From NCBI GenBank assembly GCA_016218715.1, contig JACRDG010000112.1:62001-126000 (forward strand): a DNA stretch of 64,000 nt, in the 5' to 3' direction. This DNA comes from Desulfomonile tiedjei. Its GTDB lineage: Bacteria > Desulfobacterota > Desulfomonilia > Desulfomonilales > Desulfomonilaceae. The notes under the pieces are model-generated. The model saw nothing but the letters and a program-made list of their open reading frames with translations, was not told the origin of the DNA and did not search any database. Shown here piece after piece: positions 19,695 to 25,701 of the stretch. The position numbers and the translations under genes are program-made. Within the stretch, counting starts at the first letter, position 1. The number at the start of each line of letters is the position of its first letter.

Positions 19695-19734
19695 CCGGGG
19701 AGAACTTCTCTGTGTAAAGGAGTTCCCCTCTGGC
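19695..19734. repeat. Dispersed hairpin repeat (copy 2, degenerate)
   Basis: CCGGGGAGAACTTCTC then AGGAGTTCCCC: imperfect stem-loop directly after the stop of the GT-C-like gene. Placement suits a terminator. Confidence 0.55.
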
Positions 19735-19756
19735 CTCATTCAAGAAACTCTATTGC

Positions 19757-19803
19757 CCTTGGCTTTCCGTCTCTCCTCGACGAGGAGAGACGGAAAGCCA
19801 AGG
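19757..19803. repeat. Perfect 23-bp inverted repeat (long palindrome)
   Basis: Arms 19757-19779 (CCTTGGCTTTCCGTCTCTCC followed by TCG) and 19781-19803 are exact reverse complements with a single central A. It lies between the convergent GT-C-like gene and the selenoprotein gene, between two copies of the GGGGAGAACC repeat. It would form a very stable hairpin or cruciform. Confidence 0.9.
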
Positions 19804-19833
19804 AAACAAGAAGTTTTTGGAGAGGGGTCCGGC

Positions 19834-19876
19834 GAGAAACCTTTTTTCAAAAAAGGTTCTCCCCGGATTACTTCTT
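19834..19876. repeat. Dispersed hairpin repeat (copy 3)
   Basis: GAGAAACC, a T/A-rich centre, GGTTCTCCCC and then GGATTACTTCT. Closely matches the copies at 16933 and 63538. It lies just downstream of the selenoprotein gene (minus strand) and may serve as its terminator. Confidence 0.7.
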
Positions 19877-19892
19877 CGAATCCGATTCGCTT

Positions 19893-21011
19893 TCACGCGC
19901 CCGAGTCGTTGAGGATCTTGTGGATTTGTGCCTTGGGAAGGACACCGACGAAGCTTGCGGTAATTTCCGCGTTTCGCACGACGAAAATCGTGGGGATCTT
20001 CCGGATGCCGAAAGCTGAGACCAGTTCCCGCTCAGATACCATGACCAGGCCCACAACGGCCTTCCCCCTTGTCTCGCCCGCAACTTCACTCAGAACGGAT
20101 GCCATCCGTTTGCATGGCGGTCAAGTGTCGCTATAGAACTGGAACAGCACCGGATAGACCTTCGACGCCTCGACAACTTCCTGCTTGAAGTCGCCCGCAG
20201 TAAACAACCGCAGCGTGCCCGTGGCGTAGGTCTTCTGTACCGTGCGTGGCTCCTGGCGGGGCGGGGCGGGGCGAGGGGGCTCCGTGGTCGGCTGTCGAAA
20301 TTCTCTGCCCGGTGGTCGCTCGGTTACTTTCAGGGGAGTGCTGGGTTTGGGGATCGGGATCTGTTCGGAGGTGTCCGTGGAATTCTGCGCGTCCCCTTCG
20401 GTTTCGGCAAAGAGAGAGCTTTCCACTTCCTGTGCCGGCGCCTGCGGACGGGTCGATTTCATATCCTTGGCCAAGCCGAGGGCCTTCTGGTAAGTCTCTT
20501 TCGGCGTGACCGCGGCAACATTTGTCCGCTCCCCGGCTCGATGGCGAGACCAGATCAACAGGAAGGCTCCAAGGACCATCACGGCCACGACGCTCCAGAC
20601 GACCGGGGTCCACGACTTCGATGCGCTGGCCTCAAGGTAACCCATGGTTTCGACTGAGGCACGCTCGACTGGGGCATCTCCCGTCTGCCGCGCGAGGAAC
20701 TTCTCGACCACGACGCCACACGCGGGGCATTCCTCGAATTCACGTTCCTGGCCCTGGTGGCAAGCAGGGCAGTACCAGAGGTACCCGTGCTCCGGACCTT
20801 GCGGCGGTTCGCCTTCGCTCGGCGACGTGAACCCCCGTTTCCGAAGTTCGGCTTCGCTTAAGGCCTTCGCGGCCACCAGTTTCCGGCACACCGTCTCGAG
20901 GGACGTGTCGGAGAGGCCGTACTTACGCTTCAATTGTGTGCGATCCATGCCGGCGCGGATATCGGTAACAATTTGTTTGGCGCTGACCTTCCGTTTCTCG
21001 GAATCGGCCAT
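19893..21011 (-). CDS. Membrane-anchored thioredoxin-like selenoprotein (in-frame TGA = Sec297)
   Basis: A 372-residue protein if the TGA at 20123-20121 is read as selenocysteine. The frame is unbroken on both sides: 296 codons before, 75 after. Order: helical N-terminus with a helix-turn-helix look (residues 10-50), zinc ribbon C81/C84/C95/C98, one membrane helix (about 134-154), a Pro/Glu-rich linker, then a thioredoxin fold. The fold reads FQFYSDT-U-PPC-K, so Sec takes the first cysteine position of the CxxC centre, and the cis-proline motif RKIPTIFVV follows. A hairpin fitting the bacterial SECIS rule is directly downstream of the TGA. Likely a thiol oxidoreductase facing the periplasm with a cytoplasmic zinc ribbon. 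The alternative is a pseudogene with a Cys-to-stop mutation. Confidence 0.8.
20094..20123 (-). promoter_or_regulatory. bSECIS-like element with the UGA codon
   Basis: After UGA (20123-20121) the mRNA has a perfect seven-base stem AACGGAU/AUCCGUU (20110-20104 with 20100-20094) and a GGC loop. The loop starts 18 nt after the UGA and its first two bases are G. This fits the published bacterial rule (loop 16-37 nt downstream, G among the first two loop bases). A competing GCCAU/AUGGC stem is also possible. Confidence 0.7.
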
Positions 21012-21682
21012 CGGGGAATTCCTTCCGTGAGCCTGGCCGACTCTGCTGACGCCTGCCGGCTTATTCCACTCTATCGGTTATGAACAGGCTCGTCAAGCCG
21101 GGAATCTTCCATCGGGCCGCACCTCAGTACTCTGAGGCACAGATCCGGCGGCGTACTTGCGGCATGCTATGAGTGCTGCATGTGGCGTCCCGGAGGGACG
21201 CACGTTGCATAGCCATGGGTTTCAACCCATGGTACAAAGGCCTCTCGAAGACAGTCCGGACCCTGAGGGGGTCCACCAAACTCGCAATCCTGTGCTCGTG
21301 CTTGGTCGACTCCTTCAGGGTCGGTTCCTCAGTGATCGTGTAGGCTGCCGACCACGGGCTCCCGCCCGTGGCTACTGTTGGTCAGCCCCTTCGGGGCTTG
21401 GCGGTTCCCCCGAATACGTGACCGTAGTTGCGCCAAAGTGTACTCAGCCTTCTCCCTTGGAGCACATCTGTTTCGGTAACCACTATGGGCGCGGCTGAAT
21501 TATTCTCGCATGTGTCTCCGCATCTAATCTTCGCTTGACCTTGCTTTCCAGAGTGGTATCCTGGAACTAGCACGGTTCCATCCGTTACCATCTCAACCCC
21601 CCACGCGAATCTGGATATCTTCCAGCCTTCCCCTGAATCCGGGTCCTCACGTTAACGCTCCACAACACAAAGGAGACGAAAG
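21012..21682. repeat. Gene-free region with dispersed stem-loop repeats
   Basis: No gene is supported. About 21183-21290 and 21294-21405 hold tandem-like modules of short hairpins: GCGTCCC/GGGACGC, CCATGGGTTTCAACCCATGG, GACCCTGAGGGGGTCC, CCACGGGCTCCCGCCCGTGG and AGCCCCTTCGGGGCT. Relatives recur at 22237-22452. Such modules look like mobile REP-type or retro-like repeat DNA, not coding DNA. Confidence 0.65.
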
Positions 21683-22638: not shown

Positions 22639-25600
22639 ATGCCGACTATCGAGCTGAAACCGAATCACAAGGCCGTCAAAGACTATTACGCAGGCCTCGA
22701 AGCATTTCACCGGCTCGGCGTCACCCATGAGACGGCTGTCCGTGCTGCGTTCCAAAGGCTCCTGGAGCATTGCTGCAGACAGGCCAAGTGGACTTTCATC
22801 GGCGAATACAAATACGTCAGGAAAGGCCAGCGACCCCTCAGCGTTGACGGCGCTGCGGTGGACGGCTTCAAAATCCCGCAGGCATATTGGGAGGCCAAGG
22901 ACACGCATGATGACCTCCGGAAGGAAGTGCAAACGAAGTTCCGGAAGGGTTATCCGAGGAACAATATCGTTTTCCAGAGTCCGGACACAGCAATTCTCTG
23001 GCAGGATTCCCGGGAGGCACTTGAAGCTGACATCACCAAGCCCGACATGCTGGTCTATGTCGTAAAGGAGCTTTTTGGATACAGTTCCGAGACACAACGG
23101 GACTGGGAAGTTGCGGTCGAAGAGTTCAAACCTCATATTCCCCAAATCGCCGCCACGGTCGTCGAACTCATCGAGGTCGAACGCAAGGAAAATAAACCTT
23201 TCTTGCAAGCCTTCAATGCCTTCGCGGAAGTGTGTCGCTCATCGATTAACCCCAATTTGTCGGATGCCGCAGTCGAAGAAATGCTCGTGCAGCATCTGTT
23301 GACCGAGCGGATTTTTCGAAAGGTCTTCCACAACTCCGAGTTCACTGACCGCAACATCATCGCCCATGAAATTGAACGGGTTATCCATGCCCTCACATCA
23401 AGGAAGTTCAGTAGAGAAGAGTTTCTGCGCCCACTGGATCGCTTTTACGGAGCATTGGAAAAGAGAGCCGAGACGCTCGATGACTACAGCCAGCAGCAGA
23501 CCTTCCTCAACACGGTGTACGAGAAGTTCTTTCAGGGTTTCGCGGTCAAGCAGGCAGACACGCACGGGATAGTATACACACCTCAGCCTATTGTGGATTT
23601 TATGGTCCGATCCGTTGAGGAAATCCTGAACAAGGAGTTCGGCAAGAGCCTCAGTGACGAAGGCGTCCACATAATCGACCCTTTTGTTGGCACGGGAAAC
23701 TTTATCACACGGATCATGCGGGAGATCAAGAAGACAGCCCTCCCTCAGAAATATGCCAACGAACTGCACTGCAATGAGGTGATGCTGCTCCCCTACTACA
23801 TCGCGTCCATGAACATCGAACACGAGTATTACGAACGCTCCGGCGAATACAAACCTTTTGAAGGGATCTGCCTGGTGGACACCTTTGAGTTGGCAGAGGA
23901 CAAGCAGTTGTCCTTGATGTTCACGGAAGAAAACACGGAACGGGTCGAGAAGCTGAGAAGAACCAAGCTGTTCGTCATAATTGGGAATCCCCCGTACAAC
24001 TCGAAGCAGCTAAACGAAAACGACAATAATAAGAATCGGAAATACAAAACCATGGACACGCGGGTATCACATACTTATGCCCACGATAGTGTAGCCTCCA
24101 ACAAAAACAAACTGGCCGACCCTTATGTTAAGGCCGTCCGCTGGGCATCGGACAAAGTTCTCGAAAATGGCGAAGGCGTGGTAGCTTTTGTCTCAAACAA
24201 CAGCTTCATAGAGAAAAAAGCTTTTGATGGGATGCGGAAACACCTTGAACAGGATTTCGATCTCATTTACATCCTCAACCTCCGTGGGGATGTCCGAGAC
24301 AACCCCAAGATTTCAGGGACAACTCACAATGTCTTTGGGATACAAATTGGCGTAAGCATCAACCTCTTTGTCAGACTTGTGAATCACACCGCTGGTCGTT
24401 GCCGGATATTCTATTCCGCTGTTGACGATTTCTGGAGGAAAGAAGACAAGCTCTCGTTCTTGGAATCCACTGGAACGTATTCCGGCATCAAGTGGCTCGA
24501 TATGACCCCTCAGGCTAAGCATGCTTGGCTCACAGAAGGTCTTAGGACCGATTTTGATCTTATGATGCCGATGGGAACGGTGGGCAAAAACCTCGGTGAC
24601 CGAGCTTTGTTCACCATTTTCAGTTTGGGTGTGAACACCAACCGAGACGCATGGGCCTACAATTTCAACCCGGCAGAATTAGGGCAAAACATGCGACGCA
24701 CCATCACGGCTTACAACGAACAAGTATTTAGTTGGCTCAGGATTGCCGACAAACCCAAAGTGGATGATTTCGTGCTCAATGATGATACGAGATTAGCGTG
24801 GAGCAGAGATCTCAAATTAGACATGACACGTGGTAGAACCCTAGAGTACGAAGAGCAAAGCATTCGACCATCCATATACAGACCCTTTACGAGAGTCTGC
24901 TTGTACTTTGATAGAACTATGAATGAAGAAGTCTACCGCTTTCCAACAATTCTCCCGACTACGGCTACCGAGGGAGAAAATCGCCTAGTATGCGTTGGGG
25001 CGTACGGCCGAAAGGCTTTCGCTGCCATTATGGTCGCGTTCATACCCAATCTTAATCTATTCGGTGACCCGCAACAGTCCTTCCCATTCTATACTTATGA
25101 CGAAGACGGTAACAATCGCCGGGAGAACATCACCGACTGGGCTCTTGAGCAGTTTTCCTCCACTCTCTGTGCAGACACGGACAAATGGCAAATCTTCCAC
25201 TACGTTTACGGAATCCTCCATTCTCCAGAATACTGCAAGATGTTCAAGGTCAATCTGAAGAGGGAGCTTCCACGAATACCATTGCCCAAGAACCTTGAAC
25301 AATTCCATGGGTTCGCATCGGCCGGCGAACGATTGGCAGACTTGCATGTCAACTACGAGTCTCAGCCCGAATACCCGATGCAAAAGGATGAGAATCCGGA
25401 TAAGCCGCTCAACTGGCGTGTCGAGAAGATGAAGCTGACGAAGGATAAGACCGCCATTATCTATAACGACTTTCTCACGCTCGCGGGAATCCCGCCCGAG
25501 GTCTTCGAATATCGCCTCGGCAATCGTTCAGCCTTGGAGTGGATCATTGACCGCTATCAGGTGCGGACAGACAAACGGAGTGGCATCGTGAACGACCCCA

Positions 25601-25701
25601 ACCGAGCTGACGATCCGGAATATATAGTCAGGCTGATCGGGAAGATCGTTACGGTGAGTCTGGAAACGATGAAGATCGTAAAGGGATTGCCCGGCCTGTG
25701 A
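22639..25701 (+). CDS. Single-chain restriction-methyltransferase (type IIG/ISP-like, helicase-less)
   Basis: 1020 residues. The N-terminal region has a PD-(D/E)xK-like nuclease signature (D75, then E85-A-K87 in YWEAKDT). A helical spacer follows, then an N6-adenine methyltransferase core with SAM motif DPFVGTGNF (347-355) and catalytic NPPY (450-453). The C-terminal 450 residues resemble the target-recognition region of type ISP enzymes. Unlike those roughly 1,500-residue proteins, there is no helicase between nuclease and methylase. One protein could thus both methylate and cut a non-palindromic site. The ATG has GGAGG ten bases upstream. It is followed by an Mrr nuclease and an orphan HicB in a repeat-bounded island. 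Confidence 0.85.
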   Translation: MPTIELKPNHKAVKDYYAGLEAFHRLGVTHETAVRAAFQRLLEHCCRQAKWTFIGEYKYVRKGQRPLSVDGAAVDGFKIPQAYWEAKDTHDDLRKEVQTKFRKGYPRNNIVFQSPDTAILWQDSREALEADITKPDMLVYVVKELFGYSSETQRDWEVAVEEFKPHIPQIAATVVELIEVERKENKPFLQAFNAFAEVCRSSINPNLSDAAVEEMLVQHLLTERIFRKVFHNSEFTDRNIIAHEIERVIHALTSRKFSREEFLRPLDRFYGALEKRAETLDDYSQQQTFLNTVYEKFFQGFAVKQADTHGIVYTPQPIVDFMVRSVEEILNKEFGKSLSDEGVHIIDPFVGTGNFITRIMREIKKTALPQKYANELHCNEVMLLPYYIASMNIEHEYYERSGEYKPFEGICLVDTFELAEDKQLSLMFTEENTERVEKLRRTKLFVIIGNPPYNSKQLNENDNNKNRKYKTMDTRVSHTYAHDSVASNKNKLADPYVKAVRWASDKVLENGEGVVAFVSNNSFIEKKAFDGMRKHLEQDFDLIYILNLRGDVRDNPKISGTTHNVFGIQIGVSINLFVRLVNHTAGRCRIFYSAVDDFWRKEDKLSFLESTGTYSGIKWLDMTPQAKHAWLTEGLRTDFDLMMPMGTVGKNLGDRALFTIFSLGVNTNRDAWAYNFNPAELGQNMRRTITAYNEQVFSWLRIADKPKVDDFVLNDDTRLAWSRDLKLDMTRGRTLEYEEQSIRPSIYRPFTRVCLYFDRTMNEEVYRFPTILPTTATEGENRLVCVGAYGRKAFAAIMVAFIPNLNLFGDPQQSFPFYTYDEDGNNRRENITDWALEQFSSTLCADTDKWQIFHYVYGILHSPEYCKMFKVNLKRELPRIPLPKNLEQFHGFASAGERLADLHVNYESQPEYPMQKDENPDKPLNWRVEKMKLTKDKTAIIYNDFLTLAGIPPEVFEYRLGNRSALEWIIDRYQVRTDKRSGIVNDPNRADDPEYIVRLIGKIVTVSLETMKIVKGLPGL

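Follow-up and report, generated by a model that had tools for sequence, protein, structure and literature searches.

A putative Desulfomonile tiedjei selenoprotein that joins a zinc ribbon, a membrane helix and a UxxC thioredoxin domain

Does a TGA codon inside a thioredoxin-like reading frame end the gene, or does it encode selenocysteine (Sec)? The question is raised by a frame on the minus strand of the window, the whole 64,000-nucleotide stretch of Desulfomonile tiedjei DNA analyzed here, which starts with an ATG at 21011, ends with a TGA terminator at 19893-19895 and contains a single internal in-frame TGA. This codon (codon 297, 20121-20123) is followed by 75 sense codons before the terminator. 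Under the standard code (table 11), the ORF ends at the internal TGA and the product has 296 residues only (20121-21011, minus strand). With the TGA read as U, the gene delimited by the ORF and by full-length homologues (19893-21011, minus strand) encodes 372 residues. The sequence GGAAGGA lies upstream of the gene start and ends 8 bases before the ATG.

The domain organization of the 372-residue product was analyzed part by part; all features are on the minus strand. A single-sequence structure model places a helical domain at residues 1-60 (20832-21011), with helices predicted at 11-19, 24-31, 35-47 and 53-58. The mean pLDDT of this N-terminal part was 70.7, and blocks within residues 11-50 reached 84-86. 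No Pfam family was found for the domain, and comparison of the model with PDB chains by Foldseek gave no match at E <= 0.001; the weak matches (E of 1 or more) included helix-turn-helix regulators of the LuxR and TrpR types and small zinc fingers. A zinc ribbon follows at residues 79-106 (20694-20777), and its four cysteines (C81, C84, C95 and C98) are invariant in all five full-length genes described below, its Pfam match staying below the cut-off (DZR, 13.1 versus 27.3 bits). Hydropathy indicates a single membrane helix at residues 137-155 (20547-20603), with a mean of 2.4 over 19 residues and 1.45 for the next best segment. The Pro/Ser/Glu-rich linker at residues 160-255 (20247-20534) is variable: in the alignment of the five proteins, the mean pairwise identity was 0.21 and none of the 113 columns over residues 159-255 was invariant.

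The C-terminal part, residues 256-372 (19896-20246), is a thioredoxin domain. The original prediction had placed the TGA at the first Cys of a thioredoxin CxxC (FYSDT-U-PPC), with 75 open codons and KIPTIF downstream; the codons and the motif were both seen in frame, and the Pfam match to PF00085 covers residues 271-368 and spans the TGA (E 6.3e-15, 55.5 bits versus a cut-off of 23.5, scanned with C substituted for U at 297). U297 takes the first Cys place of CxxC (20121-20123), Cys300 the place of the resolving Cys and Pro340 that of the cis-Pro, and both Cys300 and Pro340 are invariant in the five proteins. The score against the TIGR01068 equivalog (55.5 bits) was below the cut-off of 96.8, indicating a thioredoxin-domain protein and not a standard thioredoxin. 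The single-sequence model of this part was poor (mean pLDDT 49.4), so the fold assignment rests on the sequence match.

Homologues were searched in 60 genomes, namely the genome of the window (G000) and 59 relatives. Full-length matches with exactly one internal TGA were found in G000, G003, G005, G006 and G012, which represent four genera of one bacterial family. The four homologues are 42-46% identical to the window protein in the search and 42-45% in the alignment, and the TGA occupies the same alignment column in all five genes (UPPC, UMPC, UPAC, UGPC and UGPC). Homologues ending at codon 297 would have spoken against the original prediction; the four full-length ones read on through the same TGA, and this shared codon is the decisive evidence for the observation.

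Full-length members were present in five of the 18 family genomes examined and were not found in the other 13, several of which are only about 80% complete; since the completeness stated for G004 and G008 is 99%, some absences are probably real. Among 395 genomes across the phylum, the listed matches, ordered by E value with the full-length ones on top, contained full-length matches in G000, G003 and G006 and no full-length member outside the family; G005 and G012 did not appear among them and were presumably not in the draw. A full-length version with Cys was not seen among the matches listed in either the 60-genome or the 395-genome search. One scan of genome contigs gave a single locus, a Bacteroidetes CGPC thioredoxin. 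Several other hits had been counted as containing a TGA and were rejected on inspection: L028 (L067 being the same place), L037, L043, L066 and L080 carry CGPC with the stop upstream of the domain, and the rows at the places of L024, L026, L101 and L102 have Cys at the active site. The inspected set leaves out G030:C288, G075:C129, G137:C1 and G005:C1:1984213.

All components for Sec decoding were found in the genome, where the original prediction had called for a search for selA, selB, selC and selD. SelA was detected with E 3.4e-153 and was present in 18 of 18 family genomes examined, including the 13 that gave no full-length member, a point that counts against the selenoprotein reading. SelB scored 384.1 bits (cut-off 242.25). 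tRNA-Sec reached 71.3 bits against a gathering score of 47, and ARAGORN reported a tRNA-SeC with anticodon TCA. SelD (L060, G000:C85:75991-76908) scored 370.1 bits (cut-off 125); its own frame holds an in-frame TGA, so SelD is probably itself a selenoprotein. Together with the TGA kept in four homologues, this machinery lends support to the predicted insertion of Sec.

The hairpin behind the TGA was analyzed next to these components. The predicted seven-base stem with a GGC loop was recovered exactly, as AACGGAT-GGC-ATCCGTT at 20110-20094 (minus strand); the first stem base is the 11th nucleotide past the TGA, which leaves a spacer of 10 nt, and 17 nt lie between the TGA and the loop. The bSECIS criteria given in a published review comprise an upper stem of 4-16 bp, a loop of 3-9 nt with G in the first two loop places, a distance of 16-37 nt from the UGA and an energy of -7.5 kcal/mol or lower (PMC13188914). 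Applied by hand, they agree with the window hairpin, which has a 7-bp stem, a GGC loop at 17 nt and -9.6 kcal/mol for a 42-nt stretch. Of the 1970 TGA triplets in the window, only 4 are followed in the allowed range by a stem of 7 perfect base pairs that closes a 3-nt loop with G in one of its first two places.

The 14 bases CGGATGGCATCCGT are identical across all five full-length genes, and within residues 298-307 a single codon is used by all five at 3 of 5 invariant degenerate columns compared with 2 of 66 in the rest of the alignment (Fisher p 0.0017, for a region picked after the alignment was seen). In the five genes and a paralogue described below, 42 of 42 cells of the seven stem pairs are standard pairs, and sliding the stem partner by 1-3 columns lowered this to 36-50%. 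Two-sided change was found in one pair only, A-U for G-C in the window gene, and 85 of 500 shuffles reached the observed covariation. The folding energy of the window hairpin gave z = -0.73, with 50 of 200 shuffles folding at least as well; over the six sequences z ranged from -1.84 to +0.49, and a competing fold was obtained for two of them, in L013 as the fold of lowest energy and in L011 as the centroid. A putative bSECIS is thus supported by the conserved sequence, its position and its geometry, and covariation and folding energy add little and refute nothing.

Within G000, the exact combination of TGA, spacing and CGGATGGCATCCGT occurs at one place only, the window gene; the near matches include the paralogue with 2 mismatches. 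Allowing up to 3 mismatches, the pattern was matched at 23 places versus 2 for the reversed pattern. At G000:C108:141195-141223, a TGA is followed by a same-spaced copy of the hairpin with 1 mismatch in the stem, which could be chance.

The paralogue is a second membrane thioredoxin with an in-frame TGA, located at G000:C48:17022-17555 (L041, 4023-4556). Its thioredoxin domain (PF00085, E 3.2e-17), preceded by a membrane helix, has the motif UPTC, and the gene has its own hairpin, the loop likewise 17 nt from the TGA. Both proteins therefore share the membrane helix, the UxxC thioredoxin and the hairpin spacing, whereas the zinc ribbon and the helical N-terminal domain are found in the window protein only. 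A search of the other 17 family genomes gave no close relative of L041 with the same TGA: none of the hits exceeded 45% identity, and they comprised membrane thioredoxins with Cys, the Sec proteins with a zinc ribbon and further thioredoxins.

The nearest Cys relatives of the Sec domain are CFPC/CLPC thioredoxins of the family. They too have a helix in front, but they carry Cys, are short (144 residues in L098 and L100) and lack the helical domain and the zinc ribbon. The Cys homologues that the original prediction asked for were therefore found as shorter membrane thioredoxins and not as full-length proteins. From fetched loci under 15 kb, 61 thioredoxin domains were collected (matches over at least 85 model positions with E no higher than 1e-8, duplicates counted once), of which 6 have U and 55 Cys at the Sec place. 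The tree set comprised 43 domains (6 Sec, 17 CFPC/CLPC and 20 other Cys) after removal of L113 and of 17 soluble-type sequences whose E values exceeded 3e-18. The 17 CFPC/CLPC members come from 17 of the 18 family genomes; the front helix is present in 16, and the 17th is cut by a contig end.

In the tree, the six Sec domains cluster together (99/97), with the CFPC/CLPC thioredoxins next to them, and both sets were grouped together against the rest (100/100). Without L041, the five Sec domains remained one group (100/99) and the CFPC/CLPC domains formed their own, weak group (92/49); without the five, L041 fell with the CFPC/CLPC domains (100/100). The branch of L041 is long (1.43, and 3.36 without the other five Sec rows), and a long-branch warning accompanied both tree runs, so that the trees do not fix the place of L041 or the direction of change between Cys and Sec. 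The simplest reading of these sequences would be that Sec replaced Cys once in a lineage of membrane thioredoxins and that a fusion with the helical/zinc-ribbon module took place.

This N-terminal module is also found in other proteins. L091-L094 of the same bacterial family are related to the window protein from residues 1-5 to between 171 and 239. They have the helical N-terminal domain, the zinc ribbon and the helix in common with it; their C-terminal domain is a different one, with DANRNGDLTDD-type and DGNADGDYSNDP motifs, and they have no internal stop. In the one member scanned, L092, the C-terminal domain matched no Pfam family and no thioredoxin. The module is expanded in G000, with 25 matches at E <= 1e-6, some to one half only, and was found in 9 of 42 genomes of the class, all 9 within this family. 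In further proteins it is fused to beta-propellers, recognized by Pfam in L096 and by eye in L095, or to membrane proteins.

Most probably, then, the gene encodes a selenoprotein in which UGA 297 is decoded with help from the hairpin, and the product is a membrane-tethered thioredoxin-type oxidoreductase with its thioredoxin domain in the periplasm. SelB and tRNA-Sec would decode UGA 297 as Sec, aided by the hairpin directly behind it, and the product would act as a thiol:disulfide (selenenyl-sulfide) oxidoreductase. Following established thioredoxin chemistry, Sec297 would attack a substrate disulfide, or carry the oxidizing equivalent, and Cys300 would resolve the mixed bond. The one helix would anchor the protein with the helical domain and the zinc ribbon most likely in the cytoplasm. 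The thioredoxin would extend into the periplasm on its long linker, and an electron carrier of the CcdA/DsbD type would maintain it in the reduced state. Four proteins of the DsbD_TM family exceed the cut-off in the genome and could be this electron source across the membrane. We infer Sec insertion, membrane side, direction of redox flow and partners; the conserved TGA, the UxxC motif, the hairpin sequence, the Sec machinery and the domain order can be read from the sequences themselves.

No shared neighbor that would name a partner was seen among the 10 neighbors scanned for the window gene, G003, G005 and G006. In G006 they include a Mg-chelatase/ComM-type protein and RuvB, and in G003 a signal peptidase and Sua5; G005 has an NMT1-like binding protein, and in the window the gene lies near a type ISP restriction enzyme and a protein that matches no Pfam family. 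The type ISP restriction-modification enzyme (22639-25701) has a PF18135 C-terminal specificity domain (E 9.6e-100). Just past the gene, a long inverted repeat seen by eye at 19751-19811 is possibly a terminator or a mobile repeat; it drew several unrelated Rfam models below threshold. Rfam on 19700-21100 gave 18 matches, all below the gathering score and at 19732-19882, and none on the hairpin.

The side of the membrane was examined by the charges around the helix. The five proteins have 1-2 Lys/Arg on its N side and 2-4 on its C side (equal in L014), and the related protein L094 has 1 N-terminal and 3 C-terminal. With more Lys/Arg behind the helix, the positive-inside rule would favor the opposite orientation, so that the same selenoprotein could hold its thioredoxin in the cytoplasm, N-out or merely membrane-associated, and docked to the membrane. 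We consider this rather unlikely. The N-terminal part of about 130 residues is rich in Lys/Arg, contains the zinc ribbon and has no signal peptide evident by eye, and this basic module and the long variable linker suggest an N-in protein. An N-in/C-out orientation also fits the relatives of the thioredoxin part, which are anchored N-terminally with a short basic start ahead of the helix, and the paralogue, with 3 Lys/Arg before its helix and 0 after. The thioredoxin probably lies outside the membrane; the original prediction's periplasmic location is plausible, though it gains no support from the charges that flank the helix of the window protein.

With the N-in orientation, the protein may alternatively be a transmembrane redox relay or sensor, in which the Sec thioredoxin would signal the thiol state outside to the cytoplasmic helical and zinc-ribbon module. 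The helical module would then possibly be helix-turn-helix-like, and the protein one of a lineage-expanded set sharing the module and differing in partner domains. We regard this reading as doubtful.

It is far less probable that the TGA is a true stop, leaving a 296-residue zinc-ribbon membrane protein and a decaying thioredoxin remnant. The table 11 ORF does end at this codon, and an open stretch of 75 codons or more follows 12.5% of the window TGA triplets that have a later stop (246 of 1967, counted in every frame of both strands), so that the open frame by itself is weak evidence. Nevertheless, the TGA is common to five genomes, the mean pairwise identity of the thioredoxin domain is 0.61 after the TGA compared with 0.66 before it (five members), and over residues 308-372 the three codon positions differ at 0.33/0.22/0.66, a bias toward the third position that is the pattern of a translated frame. 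Synonymous sites fixed in the hairpin and the Sec machinery of the genome also argue against a stop. It is equally improbable that the TGA is read without selenium, through a reassigned code or a near-cognate tRNA for Trp or Cys: the frame is open whatever residue the TGA encodes, but the terminator is TGA in four of the five genes, the window gene included, indicating that TGA is not simply reassigned, and the codon sits at the catalytic Cys site in a genome with tRNA-Sec and SelA, SelB and SelD. A sequencing slip from TGC or TGT is hard to reconcile with the same TGA in five genomes. On this five-genome conservation, remnant, reassignment and sequencing error were set aside, and the internal TGA is almost certainly read as Sec.

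Thioredoxin (PF00085, UxxC) is listed as an experimentally verified selenoprotein family in Table 1 of a 2026 review, which also has many thioredoxin-like selenoprotein families (PMC13188914). The known thioredoxin family and the window protein have in common the thioredoxin domain with Sec first and the resolving Cys three residues on (PMC13188914, Table 1). They differ, on a comparison made with the family and not with the sequences of known members, in that the window thioredoxin forms the C-terminal end of a longer membrane protein (372 residues, with helical domain, zinc ribbon, helix and linker), that the residue before Sec is Thr and not Trp, and that the motif varies (UPPC, UMPC, UPAC, UGPC). 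The combination of zinc ribbon, membrane helix and thioredoxin is not named in that table, which sorts by domain and motif, so that such a protein could be filed under plain thioredoxin (PMC13188914). A zinc ribbon and Sec are also combined in the zinc ribbon-containing (seleno)protein DG (NF049953), whose motif is given as GUxG in the same table-level catalogue (PMC13188914). Membership in NF049953 was rejected, as the match covers only residues 78-101 with 15 versus 130 bits and the motif here is UxxC. Literature searches found no paper on such a protein, the broader ones being covered in part. The architecture of helical domain, zinc ribbon, one helix, linker and UxxC thioredoxin thus appears absent from the part of the published catalogue checked (PMC13188914, Table 1). 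What had been predicted as a new type of selenoprotein is new in its domain arrangement, and its kind, a Sec thioredoxin with UxxC, is already known.

The protein adds a selenoprotein architecture that would be missed by standard gene calling, which cuts it at residue 296. It also points to the outer face of a bacterial membrane as the most likely site of this Sec thioredoxin. Since Cys membrane thioredoxins and the Sec forms occur in the same genomes, the advantage that Sec may give in a membrane thiol-disulfide relay would be directly testable in this family.
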